From positions 1-59,117 of the IMG/VR virus record IMGVR_UViG_3300034198_011610: DNA of 59,117 nucleotides, one strand, 5' to 3'. Position 1 is the stretch's first letter; every line of letters begins with the position of its first letter. Below, in pieces: positions 2,772 through 40,666 of the stretch. Source of the stretch: a virus. A program made the position numbers and the translations under genes. The notes below the pieces were generated by a model. That model saw only the letters and a program-made list of their open reading frames with translations. It had not been told where the DNA came from and did not search any database.

Positions 2772-2792
2772 ATTTAAATAAATAACACACAT

Positions 2793-4944: not shown

Positions 4945-4945
4945 A

Positions 4946-14111: not shown

Positions 14112-15362
14112 ATGGCACAAGGATATTCCGCATATAGCATATTTAGTAGCGATGTTTCTATAAGAGACAGTGCAAACTTGGACGCGTTTAGTAGGTTAAG
14201 GGTATCCAATCCATTAATACTACACAACTCTCAGTTTACGTATGACCTTGCTCCGATTATTATGGAGCAAATAACTAACGGAACGGGAGCGACTATTGCG
14301 CATGATAGCACAAACAGAAGTGCATTAATGACGTTTAGCTCAACACCAACTGGCGGGAAGTCGTACATGCAGAGCTACGAGTATCTCCCGTACCAACCAG
14401 GAAGGTCTCAATTAATATTTGTTACATTCAACATGATTGCGGCTGTAGCCAACGTATTGAAATTTGCTGGATATTCAGACGGAGTAAACGGAATAGAATT
14501 TCAATTAAATGGGACTACAAAGCAATTTGTGGTATATTCTGCAAGTTCTGCTGGAAATGAAACAGTTACTCAGTCTAGTTGGAATATAGATAAATTAGAC
14601 GGAACGGGAGCTAGCGGAATAACATTAGACATAACCAAAACACAAATACTAGTAATAGACATACAGGCTCTTTATGTAGGTAGGGTTAGGGTTGGCTTCG
14701 ATATCGGCGGGGTAATTGTTTATGCTCATGAATTTTTGCACTCAAATTTATTTGCTTCCCCGTACATACAAACAGCTAATTTACCTGTAAGATGCGGCAT
14801 GACATGCACAGCAACGGTTAGCACAACAATGAGCTTTATATGTTCCGCAGTTATATCAGAAGGAGGCTCAGAGGATATAAATGTATACGGTTATACATTT
14901 CAGCAAGATAGCGGAGCTGTTAACGTAGGTACAGGCGGTACGCATATGATAAGTCTTAGACCAAGGACAACATTTAACAGTATAGCAAATAGAACAAGGG
15001 TAGCATATATAGATGTAGAAATTTATAACGCTGGCAATCAACCTATTCAGTGGCAGTTATGTGTTGGTCAAGCCATATCTGGGACTACTACATATAATAA
15101 TGTAAATGCATCATATAGCTCAAGCGAGTATAATGTATTGGGAACACTTAGTGGCAGCCCAGCTATTGTAATAGATGGTGGATTTGTAGCCTCATCTGGA
15201 GGAGCTAAAGGTGTGACAAATACTGCTATTGTATCTCGCTATCCAATCACTCTTGACGCGGCTGGATTACACAGAGCAATGGGAACTTTAACACTTAAGG
15301 CTATATCATTAAGTGGTACACAATCTGTTTATTCTTCAATTAAATTTAGAGAAATTAGATAA
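14112..15362 (+). CDS. Tail/virion structural protein of the 'SRLRVS' type
   Basis: 416 residues of predicted beta structure. The N-terminal LDAFSRLRVSNPLILH plus SQFTYDLAP is a recurrent start of large phage structural proteins, followed by a long jelly-roll-like part and a C-terminal beta domain with Gly/Ser-rich turns (GGAKGVTN). Likely a receptor-binding or baseplate-like protein. Confidence 0.65.
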   Translation: MAQGYSAYSIFSSDVSIRDSANLDAFSRLRVSNPLILHNSQFTYDLAPIIMEQITNGTGATIAHDSTNRSALMTFSSTPTGGKSYMQSYEYLPYQPGRSQLIFVTFNMIAAVANVLKFAGYSDGVNGIEFQLNGTTKQFVVYSASSAGNETVTQSSWNIDKLDGTGASGITLDITKTQILVIDIQALYVGRVRVGFDIGGVIVYAHEFLHSNLFASPYIQTANLPVRCGMTCTATVSTTMSFICSAVISEGGSEDINVYGYTFQQDSGAVNVGTGGTHMISLRPRTTFNSIANRTRVAYIDVEIYNAGNQPIQWQLCVGQAISGTTTYNNVNASYSSSEYNVLGTLSGSPAIVIDGGFVASSGGAKGVTNTAIVSRYPITLDAAGLHRAMGTLTLKAISLSGTQSVYSSIKFREIR

Positions 15363-15363
15363 T

Positions 15364-16484: not shown

Positions 16485-16493
16485 TTTTAATTT

Positions 16494-23082: not shown

Positions 23083-26000
23083 ATGCCAGCACCAGTATCA
23101 AAGTCAAGTGAATTATATAGAAAGTTAATTAAAGATGGATATACAGCAGAAAATATAGGCAGTGAAGAAGAGTTTACTAAAAAAGCATCAACAAAAGAAG
23201 GGGCTAGTAAATTGCATTCTGTTTTGTTATCTGAAGGTTATACTGAAGATAACTTAGGCAATATAGATGAATTCACTACTAAGCTAGTGTCAGTTTCTCC
23301 CGATAAAAAAAAAGTATCTACTACAGGTCAGCCAGCTTCATCAGAAGGATTACAGGATGGCGGCTTAGAATCTACAACATCTACGACTGAACCAAAAACA
23401 ACTCCAGAGCAGCCTAAAGGAATTGTAATTGGAGAAACAACGGGCAGCACATTTCGTACAAAAGATTTTGCAGCAGAACCATCTCCAGATAAATCTTACT
23501 ATAGAGTTGATTATAAAGATGAAAAAAATCAACCAGCTCATAAATATTTTGAAAGCGAAGAGGATAGTAGAATATTTTTTAAGAATGTTCCAACCCCTTC
23601 AACTGGTGTTACAGGATATTATGAAAAATTACCCAAAGGGGAGATTATTGAAAAAGTATCAACACCTCCCATTCCACCAACCCCAATAGATTTATCATTT
23701 AAAGCAAACGAACTATTAAATAAAAAAATAGCTACTGGAGTATCTTCCCCAACAGGCGCTATAGGTATAACACCAATAGACCTTACAACATACAAAAAAG
23801 ATGAAGAAGCAATTGCTGAAGCTAAGAAAATAAAATTAGATTTAGCTGCTCAAGGATATGACGCGGATAAAATTTATGATGACTTTAAAGATATTAATAC
23901 TTCTTTGCTATTTGATGATAACAAAGAATCAATAATGAATAATTATAAAAATAATCCAAATAAATATGAAAAAGATATAGCTATTTTAAAATTTACATCT
24001 CAATTGGCACAAGCAATACATAATATGCCAGAAGATAAAAGATTTGACCCTATTCGCGGTAGTTTACAAGAAGTATCATTTAAAAGGGATTTAAATTACA
24101 ATGAATTAAGAAAGAATACAAAAAACATAACAGATAATATAAGATTCTATGCTGGGGATAATTATGCTAATGATTTATTAAAAAATGTAGCTATAATACA
24201 AAGCGATATTTATGGTAGTGCCATAATAAATAATGATGAAAATATAAAAAATGATACAAGGTCTAATTATTTAAATAATAATCAAATAGGCGCTCTTCAA
24301 TATTTAGAAGATACAAATCCAGAAATAGCAAAGGGATATGAAGTATTAATGATAGACTCTTCTTTAATTAAAAAAAATAGTAAAGAAGAAGCTGGATGGC
24401 AAGAAAAAGCATTTGCTTTAGAATCAATAGGGTTGCAATTACAAAAAACTACTTTAAAGTCAATATTAGACGACCCAAATGTAATTGAAAATATTGGCGC
24501 AGAAGAAGCAATAAATTATGCATCTAAATTAGATGAAGTAGATAAACAAATACAAGGGTTATATACAAAATACCCTCATGCAGCTATTAGAGAAGCTACT
24601 GAAGCAGCTATGGATTTGACCGATAATATTCCTAGTATTGGGTGGGCAAATAAGCCTTTTGTGTCTGCGGGGAATGCAATCTATAATACTATTACTGGAG
24701 TATATGAATTTGCGTCAGAGCCATTTAGAAATAACGAAGAAAGCAAATTATTCCAATTAGATTTAATTGGAGAAGACATACTTAGAACCCCAAGTAAATA
24801 TCTTCTTAAGAGTCAGCAAATGAAAAAAACGTATGACTGGAAATTATCTCCAGAAGTACAAAAAAAGTATGACGACATTATGAATGATAAGTCATTATCA
24901 ATAAATGACAAAACAACTTACGTATATAATTTATTAAAAGACAATCCAAACGGATATACAAGAATACCTGTCCATAATACTAAATTAAATGTAAATCCAT
25001 CCACTATCTATTATAGTGTTACTGAACTTGCTGCATCTTTAGTTCCATATATGGCATTAGAAATGGCAACTGGCGGAGGAGCTACAGCTAGTATAATAAG
25101 AAAAATATCATCTTCATTTATAGCCGCTGCTGCTACTGGATTCCATGATAATTATGTACAAGCTATTAAAGAAGGTTCGTCAAATCCATACAGGCAAGCT
25201 ATAATAACAACCGCTATAATGAGCGCTGCTATGGCTGGCGCTGGTACACCTTCTATGATAAAATCAATGTTAGGCACAAAATCCGCTATAGGAGAAGTTG
25301 TGTCTAAACTTACTGATGATGAAATATATAATGTTTTAAATAAAATAAAAAATGGTTCTTTAAAAAATAAAATAATTGATTTTGGAGAAACAATTGGTAA
25401 AAACACTTATAAATCAATAGTAGAAGGGGCTAAAGGTGGCGCAAAATTTGAATTAACAATGTTAGCTGCTAAAGAATTAGACGCCGAAACAAAAAACCAA
25501 AAATTATCTAGGGAGGAATTATTTACAGATGCTTTATTGGGTGTTTTAAATTTTACAATATTTGGGGGTGTTACTGGATTAGGAAAATCTGCTTATAAAT
25601 CAATTACAGATATCCAAGGTGGAGCTTTAATAAAAGCTAGCGAAAATCCAGTATTATATTTAAAAGCGGCTGAAAAGCAATTATCAGACAATCTTTTAAC
25701 TAAAAATGAATATGACCAAATTAAAGACAATATAGAGACTGCATCAAGAGTTGCTGATAATATTAGATATGTAGATGAAAATGGTAATGAATTATCTGAA
25801 GCAAATAAAGCTAAACTTCTTGCAGCTAAAATACAACAATATAAACTAAGAGAGCAAGCTAATGGAGACATCCCCACAAAATTAAGGGATAAGATAGATG
25901 ATGAAATAAATGAGGTAGAAGCATATGTTGAAGAAATACAAAAACCAAAAGAATATGATACAGAAAACACAACAGGGTTACCAAGTGAAGTCAGAGTCGG

Positions 26001-29000
26001 GGAAGAACCTATCCAAGCCGAACCTATCGAAAGCAGAGGCGCACAAGAGGTTAGCGACGATAGAATTTTTCAAGAAAATGTCCCCAGCGGAGAAGGCGAA
26101 GTGGCGCAAGGGGAAGTAAAAGCTCCCGTTCCTACAGAAAAAGCACAAGGAATAGCAACACCAATAGAAAAACCTAAAGTCGTTGTTACAGGTACAAGAC
26201 AAGGTATGGAAAATCTTGCTGGGGAAAAGTCTACTGATTATGAAGGGGTTGAAGATGCTAGAGGGAGAATGAAAGACTTTGATAGCGAAGGAGTATTAAT
26301 TGAAAAAGATAAAGAAGGGAATAATGTCGTAAACATAAAAGTAGATGCTGTAGATGCATTTGGAAGACCAGGATTCCTACAAGCATCAATAACTGTCCCA
26401 GAAGGCTCAAATATAAATGATGCAGCAATTAAAAAAATAGTTGCAAAGAGTGTAAGTGAAATGAAGGGGGATAGGATGGATTTAGATTTAAGTAAAGTAG
26501 ATAAATCTTTATTTGCAAAACTTAAAGAGGATATAGTAAACGAATTAAAAAATCCATCAGAAGCTCCCGTTCCTTCAGAAGTAAAACAAGGGGAAGTAGA
26601 AGCTAAAAGAGCTGATATAGAAAAACAACAAGAACCTAAAGTAACAGGAGTAGAACAAGAGCAAGTAGTAAAGCAAATGAAACCATTTACAGATAAAATG
26701 GTTGAGATTGAAAGAGAATTTAATAATAACGGATTTGAAATAAATACAGACTACGATAATGAAATACAGGTATTAGACAAGAACGGGGAACAAGTAGAGC
26801 CAGCAGAACTTCCCGACAATTTAAAAAAAATAGCAGCAGATTATGAAAAAGCAACTAGCAAGCTAGGGGAATTTGATGCATCTGCAAGAGAAAAAGCGTT
26901 AGCTGAATCTAGGAAGGTAGTTGAAGTGGAAGCGGAGGTTGTTGAGCCTAAGAAAGAAGAACTTCCTCCCGTTCAAGAAAAGCCCAAATTAAAATCTGGG
27001 GAATCTATATCATTTAAAGATTTCGGGCAAAATAAATTAAGCGGAGAAAAAATAGAAGTCCCTGGATACGAAAATATGGACTTGATTCTAGTTAGGGACG
27101 GGTTCGATAATAAAATATACGAATTAAGCACTGGGATGCAATTGGCTGACGTATCGGCTTTTTCAAAGGAAGAGGCTATTAGCGAAGCGTCTAAATCTTT
27201 GCTAGAAAAAAAATTAAGCGCAGAAAGTATATATTCAAAAATATACAAAGCAGAGCAAGACAAAACATCTAGCAGATTAAAAACAATAAACGAAAGCCCA
27301 GCATACGAATCGTATAAAGAACAAAAAAGGGCAGAATACGAAAAGAAGCCATACGTTCAAACAGAATCAGATAGAATAGAAATAAATAAAATGGCTGACG
27401 AAGTTGAGCCGATTAACAAAAACGTAGCTGAAACATTAAGATACAATGCCAACAAAAGAGTAGTAGAGGGAGATAAATCATGGTCGTTTAGCGTTTCTGA
27501 TGCTAAGCGAATGGTTGATTTTGTTAAAGAAAAGGCAGAAGCGGACAGACTCAAATCAGAAAATTTGCCGTTGCCAGAAGATAAAAAACAAAAAAGAAAC
27601 ACAACGGAAGACGCGTTTAAGAAAGCTATAAACGAAGGATACACCAAAGATAGGTTTGATAATATTCCAGAAGAATTAAAGCAACCCATATTAGATGCAT
27701 GGAAGAAGCAAAACGAAGTATTTAATAAATACGGGTATAATCCAAAATCGCTACAAGAGTCAGACGGAATTACGCTTGTTGTAGGTAAATATCTGGCAGC
27801 ATTAAACTCAAGGGATTTAGTTAAAAAAGAATCAAGAATATCCGAAGCAATAAATGGTGTAAATAAAGAAATATCCAAAATAAATAAAATACACGATAAA
27901 GAATTTTATGTAGAGCCAATAATTAAGGTAGAAAAACCAACGATAAACAAAGACAATAAAGGACAAGAGCCATTTGTTACTAGAAATAAAAAACAAATGG
28001 TAAAAATAAACCAAAACGGAACAGCTATAGTTACGGACATGCAAGGTAATCCAGTTAGCAGAGCTGTAGAGAAAAAAGCACTGAGGGAGTATGCTAGAAA
28101 ATTTGATTATTCTGTAGGCAAAAAAGCGGAAGAGTCTGGCAACGAAATATCTTCTGCTAGGGATGTAATAATAGAATCAGAAAATCCCCTTGAAGTTGCC
28201 GAAATATACGCTAATGAAGAGCTTGCAACAGCAAATATGTCTTCAGTGGAAGCAATGATTCACGACTACGGGATAGGCAAAGTAACTAATAAGAGCTTTA
28301 GAAGATACAATGACATAAATAATATAACAATGTCATTGGCTAAAAGTTATTTAAGTAAAGAGGGAAGAGGGCTAGACCAAATAGCGAAAGATATGTCAGA
28401 CCATTATTTCCCAGAAGGAGATGGAACAGAAATATCCCCAGAAGACGTTGGCGACTTTATAGTTAGATTTCCAAATAGGGAATCGGGAAGACTAATGGAA
28501 ACAGATATAGCAAAAGAAGCTGCTGAAAAATTTAAGAAACTAACTGGTCTTTATCTAAACAGAGAAATAGCCGACATAGCAGTTAATCAACAATTTGAAT
28601 TATTAAGTAAAGAGCAACAAAAACTATTAGAATATGAATACAAAAATCAATCAGAGCTCGAAAAAGACTACTGGGACACATACGCCAAGACTGACGGATT
28701 TACAAAAGAAATTCCTGTTGGTGAAGCTAAGCAAGCAAAAGCCGCCACAAGAAAAAAAATAGGAAACTTTGAAGCCAAAGCTCAAAAGATAGCAGACAAA
28801 ATAATGGCAACAGAACTTCCCTCTTGGTTCTCAATAGCTGACAAAGATGTAATTACAAAAGGAGTTGATGCAGAGAGTATGAAGAGGGCATTGGCAGACG
28901 CTATTGTAAGTATGGGTAAGTTATTGGATAGCGGAGTAGAGTTTTCAGAAGCATTGAAGCAATCTGTAAGAGAGCTTGTTGGAATCAAGGGGGAACAAAA

Positions 29001-32000
29001 TAGAGAATCTATCGAGAAAGGGTTTGAAGAGTATTACAAGTCTCAAGTTCCCCTTGAAGAAAATCCATTTGAAAACATCCCTAAGACACAAGTAGCAAGA
29101 GACAAATACTTTGATACTACATTCGGAGAAAACGCAGACAAGGCAAGAGAGATTTATAACCAAGGGGGAACTCCAGAAGAAATGCTTGCTAAGATGAAAG
29201 AGGCTGGACTAGAACCTCCCGTACCGCCAACAGCAGAAAAACCAACATTGTCTACTGAACCAGAAAAAGTAGGTATTAGAAAAGAAGACATTAAAGAACT
29301 AGCCATTAAGTATGACTTAGACATAGCAGAAAGAAGAGAATCTATAACAGATGCTGAAATAGCTTCAATGGCTAAGGACATGATAGCTAATGGGTATGAT
29401 GTAAATAAACTTGTTCAAGATTCATTAGATATAGAAAAAAGAGGATTGACAGATATAGAGGCAAACATACTTGCAGAAGTAGCTGCTGACATGAAAGCTA
29501 AGATTGATAAAAACTCTAGTGATGCTGATATTGCTAAATACAGAGATGTACTTAGTGCGTTGAATAGGGGTATTAGCGAAAATGCTAGGGGTCTTAGGAT
29601 GGCTAAGGTTAAAAAGAATGTAGTAGAAAGCATTGCAGATGTCATGGCAGACATGATGGATGATACCATGACTGATGAATTAACTACAGAGCAAAGGAAT
29701 AAAGCTGAAGAAAGATTTAACGATATAAAAGTTGCCCTGGATAAAGAAACTGAGTTAAGAAAGCAAGCTGAACAAGAAATTGACAGATTGAAGGCAGAAC
29801 TTGAAATAAAAAAACAAAAGGCTAGAGCTGAAAATAAGCCTAAAAAAACTAAGCAAGACTATGCCTCAGAAAGAAAAACAATTATTCAGTCAATAAAAGA
29901 CAAATGGAATAAGGCAAGCAAAGGCGAGGGTGGGTTGACTATGGCAGTTGTTCCCTACCAGTCACAATTAATGGCTATCGCTCCAGATGTAGCTAGACTA
30001 GTAAAAAGTTATTTAGAACAGGGAGCTGCTACAACATTAGAAGAAGTTAGAGCATTGCTTAAAAGAGACATACAAGATGCGGGTGCTGATGTCCAAGATG
30101 AAGATGTAAGAGGATTAATTGCTGGGAATTATACTAAGAAAAAACCAACAAAGAATCAGTATGCTAAAAAATTGTATGAGTTAAAGCAAGAAGAAAAATT
30201 ACTTCTTCAAATTGAAGCGTTAGAAAGAGGGGAAGAGCCAACAACGGAAAAGAAAAGAATAGAAAAGAATCAGAAATTAGCAGATTTAAGAAAAAAAATA
30301 AAAGAACTTACTGGTAAAGAAGTTCCAAAAAAAGAGATAAAAGAAAAGACAGAAAAAACAGAAGATGAAAAGTTTGAACAAGCGGTAAATGCAAGAATAA
30401 AAGCAAACCAAAAGAAACAATCAGAAATACAAGATAAGATTAACAGGGGAGATTTCTCTCCAGAAGTAAAGAAACAAAGTATTTTAGAGAACACTGAATT
30501 GCAGAATAATAATAAAGCTCTGTATGATGAGTATTTAAAGTCGGTACTAAATAAAGACGAAGCCTTGTTGGAATATGAAAAAGCAAGAGTGGCAGACCAA
30601 ATGAAAAATAGGACAAAGCTAGAAAAGATTTCAGATGGTGTTGATGTCTTAATACAAACCTCTAAAGGTACAGTGGCAATGGCTGACCAATCATTTACAT
30701 TAGTACAAATGTTGCCATTTGCGTTTTCTCATCCAATAGAAATGGTCAAATTTGCTGCAAGAGCTGCAAAAAACTTTGCTAGCAAAACATCTTTTGATAA
30801 AAGCATGGCTATACTTCATAGTACAGCTCTTTGGGATGTCATAGAAAAATCTGGGCTAGCTATATATGAACCAAGGAGTGCAAAGTCAGAAATGAGAAAT
30901 GAACTTCATGGTGGCGAGAAGAATTTATGGAACAAGGAAATAAATGTAGGTGGCAAAAAAATAAGTGTTGGTCAAGCATTTGAAAGAAGTGCAACTACGG
31001 CACTAAACAATGCAAGACTATATTTATTTATGAACAGCGTGCAAGATTTATATAACGCTGGTAAAACATTTGAAAACTCTCCAGAGTCATTTAAAGCTGC
31101 TGCAAGAATAGCTAATGAATTTACAGGTCATGGCAAAGTGCATGAGATGTTCCAAAATAAAAATTGGGACAAAATTATATGGTCTAAAAAAATGTTCTCA
31201 AGTACATTCAATTTGCTTGGATTCGGAGACTTGATTAGACCAGTAGCTACAGCGAATGCAATAGGTAGAAGATTAGGAATTACAACAAAAGAAACTTCTA
31301 AATATAGTAAAGGTTTTTATACTAGTTTAACCGCAGACCAAGCTAAGTTTGCAACTAAAGAATTAACTAGGTTTGTAGTTGGTGGCATGATGATAATGAT
31401 TGCTACAAAATTATCATCAATAATGGCTGGGGACGATGAAGATGAAGTTGTTATTAACATGAATCCAAAAAGCACTGATTTTGGTAACATGATAGTTGGC
31501 GGTAAAAAAATATCAATATATGGAAGATTTGGTTCAGCCGTAAGAACAGTATGCCAAGTTATTTTAGGAGAAAGAACAACAGCCGAAGGAGAAAACAAAG
31601 CTCTTGGTGATGGATATGGCAATAAAACAAGTGGTGAAGTAATGTTTGGTTCATTTGTGAGGGGTAAGATGACTCCATCTGCTGGCATTGCTTATGATTT
31701 TATTTTAAATAACAAAAAGAATTATTACACTAAAGAAGAGTTATCAGCTAAAGAAATAACTAAACAATTAACAATACCGTTGGCGGCTAGGGAAGTATTT
31801 ACAGATATAGACAGAGATGGCGCATTAGTGGGTACAATAGAAACTATCGCTAAAATATATGGTGCTACGATTAGAGACGAAAGAGACTTTATTAAAACCG
31901 AGAAGCCAACATTTACAGAGTTAGAAATGAAAGACGAGGGGGATAAAAAAGTATTTGAGTTCTTAAAAAAATATGAAGTTCCCGTTCCTACATTCCAAGA

Positions 32001-32364
32001 CATAAAAAAATATCGTCTAGAAGTAGATGACAAACACCCAGAGGCTGGTAAAACAAAAGACGGTAAGCCATATGCACTATATAACCCAGATGAATTTAAA
32101 ATGTATAATGATTTTAAAAAAGATTACATTATTAAGGCACTTAAAATATTAGATAAACTAGACAAATCTGGAACAGTTAAGTTGACAAAAGAAGTTATAG
32201 AAGACAAATTAAAGTCTGTTGAAAGTCAAGCATCAAAAGTTGCCAAGAATAAATTAATTGCCAAAGGAATAATACCAGCAAAAAACAAAGAGGCATCTGA
32301 TACCGATATAACTATAAGTGAAGAATTTGCAGAATTGTTTTCAGAAGAAAATCCAGAAGAATAA
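23083..32364 (+). CDS. Giant polyvalent virion-ejection protein, 3,093 aa
   Basis: The N-terminus has two copies of a short repeat (KLIKDGYTAENIGSEEEF and LLSEGYTEDNLGNIDEF, about 14-62). A hydrophobic, Ala/Gly-rich segment (about 647-726) could span a membrane. A low-complexity middle has repeated APVP and QGEV units (about 1005-1175). A C-terminal module (about 2527-2890), starting TVAMADQSFTLVQMLPFAF and including RFVVGGMMIMIATKL, resembles the large polyvalent-protein-associated domains of ejected phage proteins. No lysozyme, protease or RNA polymerase motif was found. Likely packed in the capsid and injected with DNA. Confidence 0.75.
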   Translation: MPAPVSKSSELYRKLIKDGYTAENIGSEEEFTKKASTKEGASKLHSVLLSEGYTEDNLGNIDEFTTKLVSVSPDKKKVSTTGQPASSEGLQDGGLESTTSTTEPKTTPEQPKGIVIGETTGSTFRTKDFAAEPSPDKSYYRVDYKDEKNQPAHKYFESEEDSRIFFKNVPTPSTGVTGYYEKLPKGEIIEKVSTPPIPPTPIDLSFKANELLNKKIATGVSSPTGAIGITPIDLTTYKKDEEAIAEAKKIKLDLAAQGYDADKIYDDFKDINTSLLFDDNKESIMNNYKNNPNKYEKDIAILKFTSQLAQAIHNMPEDKRFDPIRGSLQEVSFKRDLNYNELRKNTKNITDNIRFYAGDNYANDLLKNVAIIQSDIYGSAIINNDENIKNDTRSNYLNNNQIGALQYLEDTNPEIAKGYEVLMIDSSLIKKNSKEEAGWQEKAFALESIGLQLQKTTLKSILDDPNVIENIGAEEAINYASKLDEVDKQIQGLYTKYPHAAIREATEAAMDLTDNIPSIGWANKPFVSAGNAIYNTITGVYEFASEPFRNNEESKLFQLDLIGEDILRTPSKYLLKSQQMKKTYDWKLSPEVQKKYDDIMNDKSLSINDKTTYVYNLLKDNPNGYTRIPVHNTKLNVNPSTIYYSVTELAASLVPYMALEMATGGGATASIIRKISSSFIAAAATGFHDNYVQAIKEGSSNPYRQAIITTAIMSAAMAGAGTPSMIKSMLGTKSAIGEVVSKLTDDEIYNVLNKIKNGSLKNKIIDFGETIGKNTYKSIVEGAKGGAKFELTMLAAKELDAETKNQKLSREELFTDALLGVLNFTIFGGVTGLGKSAYKSITDIQGGALIKASENPVLYLKAAEKQLSDNLLTKNEYDQIKDNIETASRVADNIRYVDENGNELSEANKAKLLAAKIQQYKLREQANGDIPTKLRDKIDDEINEVEAYVEEIQKPKEYDTENTTGLPSEVRVGEEPIQAEPIESRGAQEVSDDRIFQENVPSGEGEVAQGEVKAPVPTEKAQGIATPIEKPKVVVTGTRQGMENLAGEKSTDYEGVEDARGRMKDFDSEGVLIEKDKEGNNVVNIKVDAVDAFGRPGFLQASITVPEGSNINDAAIKKIVAKSVSEMKGDRMDLDLSKVDKSLFAKLKEDIVNELKNPSEAPVPSEVKQGEVEAKRADIEKQQEPKVTGVEQEQVVKQMKPFTDKMVEIEREFNNNGFEINTDYDNEIQVLDKNGEQVEPAELPDNLKKIAADYEKATSKLGEFDASAREKALAESRKVVEVEAEVVEPKKEELPPVQEKPKLKSGESISFKDFGQNKLSGEKIEVPGYENMDLILVRDGFDNKIYELSTGMQLADVSAFSKEEAISEASKSLLEKKLSAESIYSKIYKAEQDKTSSRLKTINESPAYESYKEQKRAEYEKKPYVQTESDRIEINKMADEVEPINKNVAETLRYNANKRVVEGDKSWSFSVSDAKRMVDFVKEKAEADRLKSENLPLPEDKKQKRNTTEDAFKKAINEGYTKDRFDNIPEELKQPILDAWKKQNEVFNKYGYNPKSLQESDGITLVVGKYLAALNSRDLVKKESRISEAINGVNKEISKINKIHDKEFYVEPIIKVEKPTINKDNKGQEPFVTRNKKQMVKINQNGTAIVTDMQGNPVSRAVEKKALREYARKFDYSVGKKAEESGNEISSARDVIIESENPLEVAEIYANEELATANMSSVEAMIHDYGIGKVTNKSFRRYNDINNITMSLAKSYLSKEGRGLDQIAKDMSDHYFPEGDGTEISPEDVGDFIVRFPNRESGRLMETDIAKEAAEKFKKLTGLYLNREIADIAVNQQFELLSKEQQKLLEYEYKNQSELEKDYWDTYAKTDGFTKEIPVGEAKQAKAATRKKIGNFEAKAQKIADKIMATELPSWFSIADKDVITKGVDAESMKRALADAIVSMGKLLDSGVEFSEALKQSVRELVGIKGEQNRESIEKGFEEYYKSQVPLEENPFENIPKTQVARDKYFDTTFGENADKAREIYNQGGTPEEMLAKMKEAGLEPPVPPTAEKPTLSTEPEKVGIRKEDIKELAIKYDLDIAERRESITDAEIASMAKDMIANGYDVNKLVQDSLDIEKRGLTDIEANILAEVAADMKAKIDKNSSDADIAKYRDVLSALNRGISENARGLRMAKVKKNVVESIADVMADMMDDTMTDELTTEQRNKAEERFNDIKVALDKETELRKQAEQEIDRLKAELEIKKQKARAENKPKKTKQDYASERKTIIQSIKDKWNKASKGEGGLTMAVVPYQSQLMAIAPDVARLVKSYLEQGAATTLEEVRALLKRDIQDAGADVQDEDVRGLIAGNYTKKKPTKNQYAKKLYELKQEEKLLLQIEALERGEEPTTEKKRIEKNQKLADLRKKIKELTGKEVPKKEIKEKTEKTEDEKFEQAVNARIKANQKKQSEIQDKINRGDFSPEVKKQSILENTELQNNNKALYDEYLKSVLNKDEALLEYEKARVADQMKNRTKLEKISDGVDVLIQTSKGTVAMADQSFTLVQMLPFAFSHPIEMVKFAARAAKNFASKTSFDKSMAILHSTALWDVIEKSGLAIYEPRSAKSEMRNELHGGEKNLWNKEINVGGKKISVGQAFERSATTALNNARLYLFMNSVQDLYNAGKTFENSPESFKAAARIANEFTGHGKVHEMFQNKNWDKIIWSKKMFSSTFNLLGFGDLIRPVATANAIGRRLGITTKETSKYSKGFYTSLTADQAKFATKELTRFVVGGMMIMIATKLSSIMAGDDEDEVVINMNPKSTDFGNMIVGGKKISIYGRFGSAVRTVCQVILGERTTAEGENKALGDGYGNKTSGEVMFGSFVRGKMTPSAGIAYDFILNNKKNYYTKEELSAKEITKQLTIPLAAREVFTDIDRDGALVGTIETIAKIYGATIRDERDFIKTEKPTFTELEMKDEGDKKVFEFLKKYEVPVPTFQDIKKYRLEVDDKHPEAGKTKDGKPYALYNPDEFKMYNDFKKDYIIKALKILDKLDKSGTVKLTKEVIEDKLKSVESQASKVAKNKLIAKGIIPAKNKEASDTDITISEEFAELFSEENPEE

Positions 32365-32380
32365 CCAAATCAAAATAACC

Positions 32381-32701
32381 ATGACCGAATCAAGAAGAAT
32401 CCAGCAATTAGAAGAACAACTAAAGAAGTATGAAGAAAATGGGATGGCTAAACTTTACTATTCATTAAATAAAAAAATGAACGAGATGGCTGACCTAATG
32501 AACAGACATGACTTAGCGGTTCTTCCCATTGACGACCCAAAGGACAAAACATTTGATAGACTAAAAGTAATATGGGCAGATGCATCAAGCATAGCCCTTG
32601 CAGTTAAGTCTCTAGGGGAAGTCGCTGGGGTTACAGGAAACGAAAAGGCAGACGTAGAAAAGAAGCCATTTGTAGAAACCATTGCTGAAGCTAGAAAATA
32701 A
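32381..32701 (+). CDS. Small coiled-coil protein, possible terminase small subunit
   Basis: 106 residues from ATG 32381 (an upstream in-frame ATG would overlap the giant gene). Begins with coiled coil (ESRRIQQLEEQLKKYEENG) and has a mid-length helical part. The place, two genes ahead of the large terminase, is where a TerS is expected, but no HTH is evident, so this is context only. Confidence 0.4.
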   Translation: MTESRRIQQLEEQLKKYEENGMAKLYYSLNKKMNEMADLMNRHDLAVLPIDDPKDKTFDRLKVIWADASSIALAVKSLGEVAGVTGNEKADVEKKPFVETIAEARK

Positions 32702-32726: not shown

Positions 32727-33224
32727 ATGAAAAAACCATTATTAGATGCTAGTTGCATAAAGAAACTGGAAAAAGCTGTTCAATATGAACTTGGGCATTT
32801 CTATCTATACAAGATGCTTGCTAATAAAATGCAGATGCTAGGCTACTTTGGTGCGCAAGAATACTTCCTAGCAGAAAGCAAGGAAGAAGAAACGCATTAT
32901 CAGAAGCATGTAGACTTCCTTAATGACGAAGGAGTTCTAACTAAATTGCCTACATTAACTCCAGAGAAGGATGACATATCTTCCCTTAAAGAAGGAATAG
33001 AATCAGCATACGAAAACGAACTAGACCTATTAAAGTATTACAGAGAATTATATAAGGAAGAAGCTATGGAATATCCAGAGATAGCGGCTCACCTTAATTT
33101 CTTCCTTGATACTCAAAGGGAAGCTGTTGGATTCTATGGAGATATTTTGGCAATGTTTGAATCAGAGAAAGATAATCATAATATATGCATGATTATTGAC
33201 CATAAACTTAAAAAATTGGCTTAA
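32727..33224 (+). CDS. Ferritin-like protein
   Basis: 165 residues in four helices. The diiron residues fall at the spacing of bacterial ferritins: E21, E54 and H57 (EETH), E98 (YENELD), and Q130/E132 (LDTQREA). Y28 is near the centre, as in ferroxidase sites. Such proteins store iron or protect DNA from oxidation. The gene is between the ejection and packaging genes and overlaps the terminase start by one base, so it is expressed late. It may be packed in the virion or replace a host iron-handling protein (inference). Confidence 0.75.
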   Translation: MKKPLLDASCIKKLEKAVQYELGHFYLYKMLANKMQMLGYFGAQEYFLAESKEEETHYQKHVDFLNDEGVLTKLPTLTPEKDDISSLKEGIESAYENELDLLKYYRELYKEEAMEYPEIAAHLNFFLDTQREAVGFYGDILAMFESEKDNHNICMIIDHKLKKLA

Positions 33225-35299
33225 TGCCCGAAAAGGTTTATATATACAATACTGAAATAGAGCTACCAGAACCTCCCGAAAATATAGAGGACTGGGGGAC
33301 AGATAGTCCCTTAGAACAATACTGGCAAAGAAAGCCATTGCCAGCCTATTTTGAGCAAGTTGAATACGATAGAGACGGTAACGCATTGCTTGATTCAAGG
33401 CAGATGCAATACGCCTCAGAAGAGGTTAGGAGATGCAAGGACGGGTTCTGGTTTATGAACAGAGGGATTCCGACATATATTACAGGGAAGAACTACTTTT
33501 ATATCCAATGGTGGAAGCTAGAGGATGACATATACCCAGACTATAGGGACTTGGATAGGAGATACTTTCTATACTTAGACAAGTGGGAGAATACGCCATG
33601 GTGTTTAGGGTTGTTGATAGGTAAGAAAAGAAGACAAGGTCAAACATCAATAGCTACCTCTAATCTAGTCTATGAGTGCATATTCTTTAAGAATAGCGTG
33701 TGCGGGTTGACAAGTAAGACGCAGATAGATGCTAAGGCAGCCTTCACTAACATGGTTGCGTTTGGTTATAGACAACTTCCCGTCTTTATGAAACCAAAGC
33801 AGTTAAACAACAAAGACTCTGTAAGTGAATTAGTATTTGCCCATAAGTTAGTAGAGGTAAAGGGAGCAAAAGGTACAGCCATAGATACAGACACAGGACA
33901 CAGGAGCAAGGTAGACTACAGAGCGCCAGGGAAGAACGCCTATGACTCTGGTCGTCTTTCAAGGTTGTTAGCAGATGAGGGCGGTAAGTTCCCGCCAGAA
34001 GTTCCCTTCTCGGAATTTATATCAATTGTTAGCAAGACAATGGTAAAGGGGGTAAAGAGGGTTGGTTTTATGGAATGTCCGTCCACAATGAATGACATGA
34101 CCAAAGGTGGCGGTGAGCAGTACAAGAAGCTGTGGGACTTGGCAGACCCAACGTCTGGCAGAACGCCAAACAGACTCGTAAGATACTTTACTCCAGCCTA
34201 TGACGGTTACCTTGGATTTATAGACAAGTACGGAATATCTGTGATAGATTCTCCCGACCCAGAGCAGTATAAATACTTAGTAGAAAACTATGTAGGACTA
34301 GGTGATTTGACAGAAGAAGACGTTAAGCTAGGAGCAAGACAATATCTAATAAATAAAAGAGCTGGTCTAGAGGGAACACTACTAGAAGAAGAGATTCGTA
34401 TGAATCCGTTTGACGAAAAGGAAATGTTCCAATCGGCAGCCACATCTTCCCTTTACAACTCATTCAAACTAAACCAACAGTTAGACTTCCTAAGCTATAA
34501 TGAACTTACTGAAAGAGGTAATCTAATATGGGAAGACGGTCATCAGTTTTACAAAGAAGAATATAACAGTCAAGGGGAGCTTGTAGGAACTAAAATAAGC
34601 AAGGTGCTATGGATTCCAAACCCTAACGGCAAATTTGAAAAAGTAAAGGGATGGAAGCCAAAGGAAATGAACAACGTCTTTGAAAAAAACGGATACTTCC
34701 ATCCAAACGGCAGCTATGCTATAAGAATAGGATGTGACCCATTCAAGTACGACAAAACAAAAGACAGCAGAAAGTCAAATTGTGCAGCATACGCATATCA
34801 ATTAGAGGATTTATCTAACGAAAATTCAGAATTTAATGATATGTTTGTAATGAAATACGTAGACCGTCCATTAACAACCGATTTACAATACGAAGCAGTG
34901 CTTAAAATGGCATGGTATTGTGGTTGTCAAGTGTTATTTGAGCGTAACGTAGATGGTTGGAAAAAGTTCTTTAATTATAATAAATGCGGTGGATTTCTAA
35001 TGTGGCTTCCTAAAGAAGTAGAGCCTGGAATCTATACTGATGGGAACGGGAGAACAACGCAAATGATATGCGACTTCACAGAGGCATACATAGAAAAGAA
35101 CATTGAGAAAGTTTACTTCCCGTCCCTAATGCAAGAACAAGCTGGATGGTTAGGATTCGAAGTAGGGAACACACAAAAGTATGACGAAGCTATGGCAAGC
35201 GGATTCGCCCTTATAGCAGCAAAGCAAAAGAGATATATAAAAGAACAAGATACAAAAAGAAATATAGAATTTATTATACCGTATTTAAACGCCAATTAG
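33224..35299 (+). CDS. terL: Large terminase subunit
   Basis: 691 residues. ATPase domain: Walker A variant IGKKRRQGQTS 132-142, Walker B SRLLADEGGKF 246-256, coupling region CPSTMND 285-291. Nuclease domain in the C-terminal half with IGCDPFKYDK (D in GCDP) and an acidic strand around the GCQVLFERNVDG region. Packages DNA into the prohead through the portal encoded next. The KKRRQG form of Walker A is typical of terminases from crAss-like and related Bacteroidetes phages. Confidence 0.93.
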   Translation: MPEKVYIYNTEIELPEPPENIEDWGTDSPLEQYWQRKPLPAYFEQVEYDRDGNALLDSRQMQYASEEVRRCKDGFWFMNRGIPTYITGKNYFYIQWWKLEDDIYPDYRDLDRRYFLYLDKWENTPWCLGLLIGKKRRQGQTSIATSNLVYECIFFKNSVCGLTSKTQIDAKAAFTNMVAFGYRQLPVFMKPKQLNNKDSVSELVFAHKLVEVKGAKGTAIDTDTGHRSKVDYRAPGKNAYDSGRLSRLLADEGGKFPPEVPFSEFISIVSKTMVKGVKRVGFMECPSTMNDMTKGGGEQYKKLWDLADPTSGRTPNRLVRYFTPAYDGYLGFIDKYGISVIDSPDPEQYKYLVENYVGLGDLTEEDVKLGARQYLINKRAGLEGTLLEEEIRMNPFDEKEMFQSAATSSLYNSFKLNQQLDFLSYNELTERGNLIWEDGHQFYKEEYNSQGELVGTKISKVLWIPNPNGKFEKVKGWKPKEMNNVFEKNGYFHPNGSYAIRIGCDPFKYDKTKDSRKSNCAAYAYQLEDLSNENSEFNDMFVMKYVDRPLTTDLQYEAVLKMAWYCGCQVLFERNVDGWKKFFNYNKCGGFLMWLPKEVEPGIYTDGNGRTTQMICDFTEAYIEKNIEKVYFPSLMQEQAGWLGFEVGNTQKYDEAMASGFALIAAKQKRYIKEQDTKRNIEFIIPYLNAN

Positions 35300-35300
35300 T

Positions 35301-37646
35301 ATGAGATATACTCAAATGGGAATAGGAAGCTCCTATCCTTACCCAGACCATAATGTAGCTCCAGATAAAAAAGGTAAAGACTGGTGTATGCAATACGCAA
35401 AAGCTGTGTATTATGACTTCACTTTTGCTTATCCCAAAGGAGTGTTTGCCAACAACAATGGTGACTATGAGAAGTTTAGAATGTACGCATTGGGCAAGCA
35501 GCCGATTTCCCCGTACAAAAAACTATTAGGAGTAGATTCACAAACAAACCATACGTGGTTGTCAGTAGACTGGACTAACAGAGCAGTAGTAAGCGGATAT
35601 AGAGACAAGGCTATAAGCAGACTAATGAAGGAGGACTTCGGTATAGTATGTACACCAATAGATATGCTTGCTAAAACAGAAATGCAAGAATACTACAACC
35701 AACTAAAAATTAAGTTGGTTATGAGGGAGCAGCTACAAAAAGAAAACCCAGAACTAGCAGAACATCCCGCACTTGCATTAGACCCAAATGACCCAGTAGA
35801 TTTAGAGGAGCTAGAAATGAGGTTGAATATGGACGAGCAGCTTATCAGAAGCAAGGACGCAGAGATGGCTATTGAGTTAGCGTTTTATCAAAATGATTAT
35901 AAAAAATATAGAAGGTCGGTATATGAGGACTTGTTTGATTATGGAGTAGCTGGATGCAAAGATTGGTTAGGGGAAGACAATAAAGTATACTTCAGAAGAG
36001 TTAACCCAGAGTGTGTAGTAACTAGCTATTGTAAAGATGGGACATTCAAAGACATTATCCATGCTGGTGAGGTTATTGACGTATCTCTTGTTGAACTTGG
36101 TACGTTGAAAGATGAGAACGGAAACGCAATGTTCACAGACGAAGAATTGCAAGAGTTTGCTGGCTCTATAGCTGGTAAGTTTGGCAACCCAGCTCAGTTG
36201 GGTAAGGGGACAGGATGGTTTAAATCATACGATAGATTCAAATGTAAAGTATTAGACCTGGAATTTTATACTTACAATGAAAACGTATACAGAGAATCAG
36301 AAGATGAGCATGGTAATTTAGACTTTAGAAAAGCAGATTATAATAGAGGGAAGAAGTCAGAAAAATACAAAAGAAAAAGAATCCAATATGTATATAAGTG
36401 CAAGTGGATTATAGGTACTGAGAAATGTTATGATTTTGGTATGGCTTATGACCAAAAAAGAAGCAACGATATGAAGAAGAAGTCTCAGACAAGACTTTCG
36501 TATTCATTCTGCGCATATAATTTCTACGAGATGAAAGCGCAATCATTTATGGAAAGACTTATTCCATACATTGATGATTATCAATTGACGATGCTTAAGA
36601 TACAGAACTTTAAGAATCGTGCAGTTCCCTCTGGCTGGTGGATAGACCTAGACTCATTAGAAAAAGTAGCATTGAATAAAGGTGGTGCTAATATGCAACC
36701 AAAGGAATTGTTACAGATGTTCTTTGAGACAGGTATATTGGTGGGAAGAAGTGTAACAGAAACTGGTGAACCACAATCTCCCAACTGGAAACCTGTAATA
36801 CCAATTGAAAATACAGCAGCTAGCGAATTAGCAATGTTTTATCAAGACTTAATGACAAGCGTTGGGATGATAGAGAAGATAACTGGATATAACGATGTTA
36901 CATCTGGAAACCCTAATCCTAAAACGCTTGTGCCTGGATACCAAAGTGCAGAGATGGCAACAAACGATGCCCTATATCCAATGGCTTACGCAGAAGAGCA
37001 TATAACATTGCAGCTAGCAGAAGATTGCTTGTGCCGTATGCAACAGGGAATCAAGAAGGGAGGTCACGTTTCTGGATATGCGCCAGCGTTAAACTCTAAC
37101 ACACTTAGGTTTGTAGAAATAGCTCCAGACATATCATTAAGAGATTACGGAATTGAACTTGAAAGAAGAACAACCAATGACCAAAAGATGTGGCTATTGC
37201 AACAAATGCAAGTAGATATTCAGAATGGATTCCTTGATACATCGGATGCTGTTCTTTTGGTAAACACAAAGAATGTAAAGCAAGCTCAAATGATTTGGGC
37301 GCACAGGGTTAAGAAGTCTAAAGAAAAACTACAAGAACAAGAGCTAGCTAAGATACAAGCTAACAATGAAGGTCAGCAGCAGTCGGCTATGATGGCTCAG
37401 CAAATGAAGCAGCAAGAGATGCAGATGCAGTATGAGTTTGAGTTGCAGAAAGAGCAGATGAGAATACAAGCCGAGTTGCAGAAAGAACAAATGAAAATAG
37501 AATCAATGGAAAGAATTGCGTTACAAAACAATCAAACGAAAGTAGCTGTAGCTCAAGAAACAGGCGACTCGAAAATAAATTCACACATGGTAGCAAGCAA
37601 TGCAATAATAGAAAAACAAAAAATAGCAAATCAAAAAACAAAATAA
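35301..37646 (+). CDS. Portal protein
   Basis: 781 residues directly after terL (1 bp gap). Long helical protein with a central crown-like part (SGWWIDLDSLEK, about 450) and a C-terminal Gln/Met-rich coiled coil (QQMKQQEMQMQYEFELQKEQ, about 695-714). Size and neighbours identify the portal, the dodecameric vertex that the terminase docks on. No enzyme motif. Confidence 0.85.
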   Translation: MRYTQMGIGSSYPYPDHNVAPDKKGKDWCMQYAKAVYYDFTFAYPKGVFANNNGDYEKFRMYALGKQPISPYKKLLGVDSQTNHTWLSVDWTNRAVVSGYRDKAISRLMKEDFGIVCTPIDMLAKTEMQEYYNQLKIKLVMREQLQKENPELAEHPALALDPNDPVDLEELEMRLNMDEQLIRSKDAEMAIELAFYQNDYKKYRRSVYEDLFDYGVAGCKDWLGEDNKVYFRRVNPECVVTSYCKDGTFKDIIHAGEVIDVSLVELGTLKDENGNAMFTDEELQEFAGSIAGKFGNPAQLGKGTGWFKSYDRFKCKVLDLEFYTYNENVYRESEDEHGNLDFRKADYNRGKKSEKYKRKRIQYVYKCKWIIGTEKCYDFGMAYDQKRSNDMKKKSQTRLSYSFCAYNFYEMKAQSFMERLIPYIDDYQLTMLKIQNFKNRAVPSGWWIDLDSLEKVALNKGGANMQPKELLQMFFETGILVGRSVTETGEPQSPNWKPVIPIENTAASELAMFYQDLMTSVGMIEKITGYNDVTSGNPNPKTLVPGYQSAEMATNDALYPMAYAEEHITLQLAEDCLCRMQQGIKKGGHVSGYAPALNSNTLRFVEIAPDISLRDYGIELERRTTNDQKMWLLQQMQVDIQNGFLDTSDAVLLVNTKNVKQAQMIWAHRVKKSKEKLQEQELAKIQANNEGQQQSAMMAQQMKQQEMQMQYEFELQKEQMRIQAELQKEQMKIESMERIALQNNQTKVAVAQETGDSKINSHMVASNAIIEKQKIANQKTK

Positions 37647-37647
37647 A

Positions 37648-38052
37648 ATGGCAAAGAAGAAAAAAGTAACAGAAGAATTATTGGAAGAATTAGAAAACTT
37701 GGTAGAAGAGATTCAAGAGTCAGAAGTATTAAGCGAAAGCACTCGTTTCGCAGTAGTTGCTGAGGAAGATTATCCAAAGCAAATGACAATAGAAGAGTCT
37801 ATGCTAGAATATATTTCTAGGCAATCGGGAAATGAAGTGAGGATTAATGATTTCTTTACTTCCCTGTTCACACTACCAGAGACAGTAGCAACATCAAAGA
37901 TGATAAAAGATATCCTAGTAAAAGCCAACAATGAAAAGAAAATAAAAGTAGTCAATAACAGACACTTTGAGCTAGGAATGACACACTATGATGTTGATGG
38001 TAAAGCGCACAAATACAACATTTCTAATATAGAAATATTTATAGAAAAATAA
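37648..38052 (+). CDS. Small acidic protein between portal and scaffold
   Basis: 134 residues. A very charged N-terminus (EELLEELENLVEEIQESE) is followed by a winged-helix-like half (NDFFTSLFTLPETVATSKM, then ILVKANNEKKIKVVNN). Common in portal-scaffold gaps of Bacteroidetes phages, without assigned role; may help capsid assembly or DNA packaging. Confidence 0.55.
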   Translation: MAKKKKVTEELLEELENLVEEIQESEVLSESTRFAVVAEEDYPKQMTIEESMLEYISRQSGNEVRINDFFTSLFTLPETVATSKMIKDILVKANNEKKIKVVNNRHFELGMTHYDVDGKAHKYNISNIEIFIEK

Positions 38053-38107: not shown

Positions 38108-39247
38108 ATGAATATTAGAAAGTTCTATGAAGCCGACCAAGCCGAAGGAGGAAGCCAAGAGCCAGCAAGCATCGCGGCTATGATGGCAAAGGAAGGCACA
38201 ATGAGTCACTCGGATAACGTACAAATGCCATCTGTAGGGAGAACCGAAGAACCAAAAGCGGCAGAACCAACACCTGTTGAGACAACAAATGTTGATAATG
38301 TAGCCCAAGGGGAATCAGAACCTCCCATACAAGCCAATGTGGGGGCATACGAATTACCACAATGGCAAGAAGTTCTTAGACAACAACAACCAGAAGCGAT
38401 TTTAAAGGAGCTTGGGTTTGATGATTCTGCTGTGGGATTTCTAAAAGAACTTAAAGATGTTGACCCTAAAATGGTTCAATTCTTTAATATGTGGAAATCA
38501 GACAAGGATAATCTGAAGTATTATCTAGAAGAAATAACAACTGACTACAGCCAAATGCCTTCAGAAGATGTGATGCGCCATCAGCTTCGTGAAGAATATC
38601 CAAAGGCTACAGAGAAGCAGTTAGATATTCTTTTTAGAAAAGAAATTGTTGAAAAATACAATCTTGACTCTATGGATGATGATTTAGTTGAGGAAGGCAA
38701 ATTATTGCTAGATGCTAAAGCTGAATATTATAGAGAAAAATTGGTACAGCAACAAGAACAACTTCAATTACCAGACTACGTTAATTCAGCTAGCGAAACA
38801 GAACAACGTGCGCAGCAAGAGTTTGAAAACTACAAGCAAAATCTAATTTCGAATCAGTTGACACAGGAATTGATGCAAAACAAAAGATTGACGATTGGAG
38901 AAGGTGATGAAAAATTCAGCTACAATCTTACTAACCCAAACAACATAGTAAACAATCTATTTGATAGCAATGCATGGGCGAACAAACTTTTTGATATTCA
39001 AAAAGATTCTCAAGGAAATGAAGTATTTGTTCCCAACGTGGAAAAGCAATTATTAGTATCTGCAATTCTAGAAGACCATAAAGGTTTCTTGAAAGAGATG
39101 GCTAAGTATTACAAGTCACTAGGGGGAAAAGCAACAATTGATTCCTTGGAAAATGCAAGCCCAGGAGGTAGCTCAGCTCCTTCTAAGCCAGCGTCAGAGC
39201 CTAAAACTCCAGCGGAGTGGATGGCAAAAAGCGGAAGATTAGTGTAG
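38108..39247 (+). CDS. Capsid scaffolding protein
   Basis: 379 residues. Low-complexity, acidic, Pro/Ala/Gln-rich N-terminus (GGSQEPASIAAMMAKEG), mostly helical in the middle, with a basic short end (AEWMAKSGRLV). This is the make-up of scaffolds, and the gene lies just before the major capsid gene. No protease domain seen, so maturation may use another enzyme or none. Confidence 0.7.
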   Translation: MNIRKFYEADQAEGGSQEPASIAAMMAKEGTMSHSDNVQMPSVGRTEEPKAAEPTPVETTNVDNVAQGESEPPIQANVGAYELPQWQEVLRQQQPEAILKELGFDDSAVGFLKELKDVDPKMVQFFNMWKSDKDNLKYYLEEITTDYSQMPSEDVMRHQLREEYPKATEKQLDILFRKEIVEKYNLDSMDDDLVEEGKLLLDAKAEYYREKLVQQQEQLQLPDYVNSASETEQRAQQEFENYKQNLISNQLTQELMQNKRLTIGEGDEKFSYNLTNPNNIVNNLFDSNAWANKLFDIQKDSQGNEVFVPNVEKQLLVSAILEDHKGFLKEMAKYYKSLGGKATIDSLENASPGGSSAPSKPASEPKTPAEWMAKSGRLV

Positions 39248-39310: not shown

Positions 39311-40666
39311 ATGCCAGTAACACAAGGAGTTATGATTAAGTCGTTTGTATCGGCAATCGACTTTCTCGACCAAAGGGATATTGACCCTAACATCTACGAC
39401 CAAAGTCGTGATAAAGCATTTACCGACATCATGAAGATGGTAAATCGCTACAAGCCAGCAACAATGTTTAACTACCACAACTTTGTAAACAATGACGTTT
39501 ACGAGGTGGGAACTATCAGTTCTGTTAGTACAACAGGTCTTGCTCAGATTACTTTCACAATCAACACAGCATCTACCTTCCCTCGCGTTGGTGATTTGAT
39601 TATGACATCAAACACTAACAACGTAGGTAAGCAAGCTCGTATCCAAACTGTAAGTTTCGGTTCTGGTACAGCTACTCTTACTGTTCGTAGCGTAGGCGGT
39701 AACTCTGCTGCTTTCTTTGCAACAGTTGGAGATAGTGTAGCTTTCTCTTCTAATGCATTTGCTGAGAAGTCTGATGCTCCTACTAATCGCAGATATGGTT
39801 TGACCAAGTATTACAACTTGATTCAAATCTTCAGAGAGGTAGATGAGGTTTCTGACATCCAGAAGGTTGCTAAAATCGAGGTTAACGTAGGCGGTGACTA
39901 CCACATCCTCCCTTACCAAACAGTACAGAAGTACATCAAGCTACAAGGAGACATCTCCGTACAAATGTTGGCTGGTGTTCAGTCTTCTACATTGTTCAAC
40001 GATTCTAACCCATTCTTGGCTGACCCATCTAGCGGTTTGCCTATCCAAACTACAGGTGGTCTTGACTGGTATGTAACTACATACGGTATCTCTGACCAAG
40101 CTGCTGTTTTGGGTACATTTGGTTTCACTGAGTTGGATGAGATTATCGACAACTTCATCGCTAACAAAGCTCCTACAGACCAAATGGTATTCATGGGCTC
40201 TAAGGCTTATCGTGTAATCAGCAAGTTCTTGAAGAACCTAGCTTCATCTGGTGTTACTTCAGTACGTTTGATGATTGATGGTAGAACTTTGGATTTCGAA
40301 GTTGAGCATCTATCTTATGGTGGATATGAATTTGATTTCGTTCACGTTCCTATCTTCGACCATCCACAATTGTTCTCTACTTCATTGAGAGCAGACGTAA
40401 ACGGTTCGTTGTATTTCGTACCTAAAGACCAAGTTGACACTGTTGACAATGGTCGCCAACCACGTATGCAAATCCGTCACACTCCTACTCCGTTCATGGG
40501 TAACGCAGCTAATAAATCAGCTAACGGTATCATCACCGAGTGGAGAACAGGTGCGCTTGCTGAAATTCCAACAAGCAGCACTATGCAATTGCATACTGAC
40601 TGGGAAACTGGTCAAGGTCTTGAGTGTCTTGCTGTTAAGCATTTCCAAAAGTACCGTATCGTTTAA
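39311..40666 (+). CDS. Major capsid protein
   Basis: 451 residues. N-terminal helix VTQGVMIKSFVSAIDFLDQR, beta domain (FPRVGDLIMTSNTNNVGKQA) and C-terminal P-loop-like strands; compatible with the HK97 fold and the length of crAss-like capsid proteins. The codon choice is unlike its neighbours, with many TTC, AAC, GAC, GGT, CGT and CCT codons, as expected of the most abundant phage protein. A strong hairpin with a T run follows 10-20 bp after the stop. The 63-bp spacer upstream may contain its own promoter. Confidence 0.85.
   Translation: MPVTQGVMIKSFVSAIDFLDQRDIDPNIYDQSRDKAFTDIMKMVNRYKPATMFNYHNFVNNDVYEVGTISSVSTTGLAQITFTINTASTFPRVGDLIMTSNTNNVGKQARIQTVSFGSGTATLTVRSVGGNSAAFFATVGDSVAFSSNAFAEKSDAPTNRRYGLTKYYNLIQIFREVDEVSDIQKVAKIEVNVGGDYHILPYQTVQKYIKLQGDISVQMLAGVQSSTLFNDSNPFLADPSSGLPIQTTGGLDWYVTTYGISDQAAVLGTFGFTELDEIIDNFIANKAPTDQMVFMGSKAYRVISKFLKNLASSGVTSVRLMIDGRTLDFEVEHLSYGGYEFDFVHVPIFDHPQLFSTSLRADVNGSLYFVPKDQVDTVDNGRQPRMQIRHTPTPFMGNAANKSANGIITEWRTGALAEIPTSSTMQLHTDWETGQGLECLAVKHFQKYRIV

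Follow-up and report, generated by a model that had tools for sequence, protein, structure and literature searches.

We have found that a ferritin encoded by an uncultivated virus belongs to what is, judged by sequence and at the sensitivity of the searches used, a virus-specific family nearly absent from cellular genomes, and that this one family recurs, with its diiron site intact, in head and packaging or giant-protein blocks of phages that have unrelated terminases and portals. Phage genes of the ferritin superfamily have so far mostly been interpreted as stress-response cargo, and the gene setting is the main new result of this work. No description of a phage ferritin within a head operon was found in the literature searched, most subscription journals and all bioRxiv preprints being outside that search.

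The ferritin gene and its neighbours

The window, that is the whole stretch of 59,117 nucleotides that was analysed, contains an ATG-initiated and TAA-terminated ORF of 165 codons at 32727-33224(+). It lies in a gene order running from structural proteins (14112-20585) through two ORFs, a 3093-aa giant protein, a 106-aa protein, the ferritin, the terminase large subunit (TerL), the portal, a 134-aa protein and a 379-aa protein to the capsid protein, and no tRNA genes were found in the window. The features are:

14112..15362, plus strand: virion structural protein, 416 aa (phrog_1645, 2e-69)
16749..20585, plus strand: virion structural protein, 1278 aa (phrog_14478, 9e-19)
23083..32364, plus strand: giant protein, 3093 aa, in a position like that of the Gundel_1 giant structural protein
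32381..32701, plus strand: 106-aa protein 5' of the ferritin, conserved in L010 and L011
32727..33224, plus strand: ferritin gene, 165 aa, stop codon included (Pfam PF00210 1e-9; AlphaFold2 pLDDT 94.2; Foldseek to E. coli FtnA, TM 0.90)
33222..33226, plus strand: TAATG, ferritin stop and TerL start sharing one base (read in the sequence; present in L001 and L010, absent in L011)
33224..35299, plus strand: TerL, 691 aa (phrog_6681, 5e-88)
35301..37646, plus strand: portal protein, 781 aa (phrog_6547, 8e-67)
37648..38052, plus strand: 134-aa protein between the portal and the 379-aa protein, no confident family, its place held by the ferritin in 12 related loci
38108..39247, plus strand: 379-aa protein in the scaffold position (function from position only; blastp cluster c5, as is the gene after the ferritin in 12 loci)
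39311..40666, plus strand: major capsid protein, 451 aa (Pfam SU10_MCP 9e-16; phrog_1328 6e-9)

That this ORF encodes a ferritin-like protein, as the original prediction had proposed, was borne out by Pfam, the predicted fold and the diiron residues, which all agree. The window protein matched the Pfam Ferritin model PF00210 with a score of 38.9 bits (cut-off 24.5; E 1e-9), all 21 of the 21 aligned family members scored above the curated cut-off of the same model, and the phmmer matches in the PDB were bacterial and archaeal non-heme ferritins. The spacing E-x32-E-x2-H-x40-E-x31-Q occurred once in the six-frame translation of the window and not at all in 100 shuffles. Chance resemblance to ferritin was ruled out by the HMM match, the fold and the motif shuffles, and host contamination of the contig was ruled out since phage genes flank the ferritin and their order is repeated in related contigs. 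The gene is under purifying selection, with a dN/dS of about 0.02 against L001 and about 0.08 against L010 (dS being near saturation for L010), values that resemble those of TerL wherever the latter could be computed.

It was also proposed, from a one-base overlap between the ferritin stop and the terminase start, that the ferritin is expressed late and coupled to the terminase. The overlap is there: the last A of the ferritin TAA (33222-33224) is the first base of the terminase ATG (33224-33226), in the context gcTTAATGcc. Its presence in L001 and L010 fits coupled expression, but it is missing in L011, and coupling to TerL is not general, as other lineages place the ferritin elsewhere in the block. 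Expression of the ferritin together with the head and packaging genes is probable, in this virus through translational coupling to TerL, and it would presumably come late in infection.

The TerL and portal of the window were nearest, at 20-28% identity, to those of podoviruses of Flavobacteriia (elemo phages, Cellulophaga phages and Gundel_1), and a Bacteroidota host for the window virus is a reasonable inference. Among these nearest annotated relatives, Tenacibaculum phage Gundel_1 shares the order giant protein, protein of about 100 aa, TerL and portal; nevertheless, the TerL proteins of the elemo phages, Cellulophaga phi46:3 and Gundel_1 are just 24-28% identical to that of the window, and these phages are without ferritin. 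A GroES co-chaperonin gene was observed 5' of TerL in the nearest annotated phages (L008, 4829-5371; L033, 4729-5331). Immediately before TerL, elemo has GroES and phi46:3 has GroES and a small gene, whereas the window lineage has the ferritin, and this slot is an accessory position tied to head assembly.

The 3093-aa giant had no match in Pfam or PHROG, and its candidacy as a homologue of the LPD38-type giants of other lineages was rejected, as hhalign found no such relation. Against the Gundel_1 giant, phmmer gave no match and blastp without composition correction gave weak matches of a low-complexity type; with no convincing homology, only position is common to both giants. The AlphaFold2 model of the 106-aa protein, built from three sequences, reached a pLDDT of 65, too weak for interpretation.

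Fold and diiron site

A fold with no likeness to ferritin would have spoken against the original prediction; structure prediction gave a four-helix bundle (residues 8-38, 41-67, 87-112 and 117-146) with a short C-terminal fifth helix (153-164), at a pTM of 0.87 from an alignment of 21 sequences drawn from the window and viral loci only. A short C-terminal helix goes with the classical 24-mer ferritin topology. The best Foldseek matches were E. coli FtnA (9bye, 4ztt and 1eum; TM about 0.90, rmsd about 1.5 A, 25-26% identity), followed by other prokaryotic ferritins. By predicted fold, domain and ligands the window protein is thus of the classical non-heme ferritin (Ftn) type, resembling FtnA in fold, length, C-terminal helix and the five diiron-site residues. 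It is a relative of FtnA rather than FtnA proper, as it scored 35.2 bits on the NCBIfam equivalog PRK10304, whose cut-off is 178. Other classes were tried and rejected. The heme-binding Met of bacterioferritin, which follows the Glu of E-x-x-H, is absent, position 55 being E in the window and never M in any row of alignment A2, and the bfr model was matched by only 1 of 21 members. Dps was set aside because the fifth helix and intrasubunit ligands are present and the best PDB folds are Ftn, and rubrerythrin because the window protein gave 22.0 bits on Pfam PF02915 against a cut-off of 22.8.

The original prediction had placed E21, E54, H57, E98 and Q130/E132 in a ferritin-like spacing, and in the window these residues stand as described. 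The codons of the site are:

32787..32789, plus strand: E21, diiron ligand (E in 77/77 viral sequences)
32886..32897, plus strand: E54-x-x-H57, diiron ligands (E54 and H57 in 77/77)
33018..33020, plus strand: E98, diiron ligand (E in 77/77)
33114..33116, plus strand: Q130, second-sphere or ligand residue of the diiron site (Q in 77/77)

The comparison used 77 usable ferritin ORFs, window included, from 83 loci examined, the remaining 6 having been lost to a contig end or to a crude ORF picker, which in the inspected cases took an overlapping antisense frame. Loss of the ligands in relatives would have spoken against the prediction; all of E21, E54, H57, E98 and Q130 were retained in each of the 77, and the same residues stand at these five positions in 22 cellular FtnA proteins of Pseudomonadota. 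E132 did not fare as well: 72 of the 77 sequences have T, K or R here. It was rejected as a diiron ligand, the invariant residue being Q130. Taken from sequence, a complete intrasubunit diiron centre (E, E-x-x-H, E, Q) is present in the viral family, and its members are predicted ferroxidases.

The third iron site of FtnA, site C, is not retained, as acidic residues are conserved only partly at position 53 and not at 129, 132 or 133, and the extra B-site carboxylates of bacterial FtnA have also been lost (by comparison with the 22 Pseudomonadota proteins). Iron turnover may therefore differ from that of bacterial FtnA. The phage family differs further from bacterial FtnA in near-invariant residues of its own (N33, Q36, E50, N66, Y105, R131, G135, Y137 and D139, against the 22 cellular FtnA) and in its location in phage head and packaging or giant-protein blocks. 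With the animal H-chain ferritin it shares a diiron site without the extra carboxylate and, at position 133, a small residue, A or S, which compares with A144 of the H-chain set (E27, E62, H65, E107, Q141 and A144); the sequence similarity is, however, weaker than that to prokaryotic ferritins, and the hosts differ.

Distribution of the family

At least 152 IMG/VR stretches encode a ferritin relative, the best 80 of which were retained for comparison, and this virus-only ferritin is shared by about 75 other uncultivated viruses whose head genes are quite different. When 84,980 species genomes were scanned once with two conserved peptide patterns, a single member was found. It sits on a 5.4-kb contig from a Rhodoferax MAG; the large ORF of this contig falls in cluster c0 of the phage giant proteins, and the contig looks viral. 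Among 398 Pseudomonadota genomes the family occurred only in the Rhodoferax seed genome (215 bits over a truncated gene), and the highest score of a cellular ferritin in these genomes was 88 bits, whereas complete viral members gave 220-286. In a quick tree, in which Pseudomonadota make up the cellular side, a fully supported but long branch separates the phage from the cellular sequences.

With five members as queries, 50,697 phage records yielded nothing, or weak hits to unannotated records at 24-28% identity, and a plasmid search returned only Edwardsiella ftnA at 28% identity. In PHROGs, 21 of 21 aligned members matched the related family phrog_16594, to which no function is assigned there. 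A viral structure library gave as its best match, at 20% identity, a protein from an uncultured marine phage annotated as "putative bacterial non-heme ferritin"; ferritins in viruses are thus no novelty in themselves. Two further observations were made in these searches. Unannotated records named Staphylococcus phage (OR845001.1, 36063-36539(-), and OR850087.1) hold a ferritin-like ORF that is 26% identical to the protein of L031 and may be host DNA in the record. Two proteins of uncultured Caudovirales phages named "prohead protease" (A0A6J7WIS1 and A0A6J7WPK9; 432 and 763 aa) match the ferritin model; fusions of a ferritin-like domain with a head protease may thus exist, and these would bear on head association.

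Gene settings in other phages

At least six gene settings were found for the ferritin. The terminases or portals of several are unrelated, and in all of them the gene lies in a head and packaging block or between giant proteins; several of these settings have only 1-3 members, and the labels of some neighbours are taken from position or blastp clusters. The upstream neighbour lies on the strand of the ferritin in 72 of 74 cases and the downstream neighbour in 73 of 76, the downstream gap being 5 nt or less in 59 of 73 same-strand loci.

The gene order of the window is repeated in L010 and L011, and L001 covers the part from ferritin through TerL to portal. In the latter (2546-5185) the portal and the next 134-aa protein form one 880-aa frame, the two being separate genes in the window, L010 and L011. 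Twelve loci (L086, L050 and others) have a homologous portal and 379-aa protein with the ferritin right between these two; genes resembling, by eye, glycosyltransferases or sugar-nucleotide enzymes were seen just 5' of the portal in L086 (3-5045) and L050 (3-5578). The ferritin of L012 lies directly 3' of a MuF-like minor head protein, which is itself preceded by a portal from a different family; the neighbour cluster is shared by L035 and by L021, whose terminase belongs to a different family. The ferritin comes after a phrog_15 TerL and a phrog_21 portal in L028, whereas L037 and L038 have ahead of it a TerL (phrog_2 in the case of L037), a 655-aa protein in portal position and a 100-aa protein.

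In about 50 loci a giant protein of cluster c0 stands on one or both sides of the ferritin, and L046 and L059 have a further pair of giants. A T7-connector-like portal (phrog_332) was found in G004, of the c0-giant group, and in the L030 phage, whose ferritin neighbours differ (537 and 899 aa). Some giants near the ferritin have LPD38, ART-PolyVal, zeta-toxin or LPD23 domains, or a partial match to a virion RNA polymerase PHROG; those beside it in L027 (8480-13846) and L031 (1645-7974) were seen to have ADP-ribosyltransferase, zeta-toxin-like, methyltransferase-like and LPD domains. L047 is cut off upstream. A separate observation concerns L101 (5841-8342(-)), where residues 64-194 of an 834-aa terminase frame match a thymidylate synthase PHROG.

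As the terminases and portals fall in different PHROG families, the ferritin was either taken up into this position repeatedly or moved between phages, and either course suggests an advantage connected with head assembly or with expression alongside the head genes.

Possible role of the ferritin

Drawing on the computed fold, ligand conservation, purifying selection, gene setting and virus specificity (at the sensitivity of the searches), we propose a late-made ferroxidase that acts while heads are assembled and DNA is packaged and that may remain with the head, a prediction which we regard as evenly balanced. Late in infection the ferritin would assemble as a cage or a smaller oligomer, oxidise Fe(II) with O2 or H2O2 and retain the product. 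In this manner it could keep Fenton chemistry from nicking DNA under packaging and hold under control the iron freed by the dying host. The recurrent portal, MuF-like, TerL and giant-protein neighbours suggest that it would act at the head and may remain there.

Ferritins are soluble cytosolic cages, and placement in the head block may simply reflect late expression. It is quite conceivable, if somewhat short of even, that the protein is a soluble, late-made ferritin of the cytoplasm which deals with the iron and the oxidative stress of the host and is never associated with heads, the head operon giving it only its late expression. No targeting extension was seen, the length of 165 aa is as in FtnA, and phage Dps and Mn-catalase (PMC8008677) as well as a giant-virus ferritin (PMC7136201) were interpreted in this way. 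However, every readable setting is a head and packaging or giant-protein block, often adjoining the portal, a MuF-like protein or TerL, and the ferritin was never found among lysis or replication genes, although late expression alone would permit more places. The head-gene neighbourhood would also suit a purely structural head or assembly protein built on a ferritin fold, in which the diiron site persists just for stability, and the family-specific invariant residues (N33 through D139, above) could mark a new interface; yet the identity of all five diiron-site residues in 77 of 77 sequences goes beyond what fold stability alone predicts, making this reading improbable.

The mineral of ferritin is enclosed in a closed shell and would thus be a poor receptor bait, and the gene sits in the head and packaging block, away from tail-fibre genes. 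We therefore give very little credence to iron-based host entry, the Ferrojan Horse idea, by which the virion would display ferritin-held iron to host iron-uptake receptors. A ferritin-like protein of a Vi01-like phage, Sajous1 gp217, was seen by mass spectrometry of phage preparations, but its assignment is by Phyre2 only and it is placed with a tail completion protein, and TonB- and FeoB-deficient hosts were infected as usual by Vi01-like phages (PMC10892097). The iron-related host interaction that the original prediction had offered finds nothing in the locus that points there, and the one published test found, made in other phages, was negative (PMC10892097).

Residence in the cell and residence in the virion come close together, and we have a slight preference for an assembly-linked role. 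The suggestion that the ferritin enters the virion has gained from the recurrence of a head and packaging or giant-protein neighbourhood in unrelated phages, its evidence being the gene setting: judged from the genes, the ferritin occupies, across lineages, the head and packaging block in which virion proteins are encoded. A further reading, which we hold tentatively and rather below even, is that several unrelated tailed-phage lineages took up one virus-specific ferritin in head or portal assembly, and that an iron-oxidising centre in the virion protects the packaged DNA or is released into the next host. A ferritin 24-mer is about 12 nm wide; it could fit in the head but cannot pass the portal, and only by coming apart, or as a smaller oligomer, could the protein be ejected.

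Related systems differ from this one in family or setting. Dps and Mn-catalase genes are known from Gratiaviridae and other gut phages (PMC8008677), and a Dps-like protein from Lactobacillus phages (PMC6669764). Like the window protein, these are phage-encoded members of the ferritin superfamily thought to counter iron and oxygen damage; they belong, however, to the Dps and catalase families and not to classical ferritin, and the Lactobacillus gene lies near DNA metabolism genes (PMC6669764) whereas the window ferritin lies in a head operon. Giant viruses also encode ferritin, interpreted as iron management, but their hosts are eukaryotic and the available part of that source describes no head-operon setting (PMC7136201). 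Encapsulins combine an HK97-type shell with a ferritin-like protein (PMC8229669, for the shell relation), but their cargo comes from another ferritin-like group, and the EncB model matched only weakly (0.002) and in just 3 of 21 viral members. Polyvalent phage proteins are described as packaged and injected (PMC5512222), and giants beside the ferritin in some lineages bear LPD38, ART-PolyVal and LPD23 domains as they do; the window giant is without such domains, and ferritin is not mentioned in PMC5512222.

The recurrence of the ferritin among head genes suggests a link between iron handling and the building of the virus head. If the protein is in the virion, it would provide a molecular basis for the debated iron in phage particles, testable in defined phages, and a parallel to the encapsulins, HK97-type shells carrying ferritin-like cargo. 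If it is cytoplasmic, the control of free iron would still be worth a head-operon gene in many uncultivated phages.
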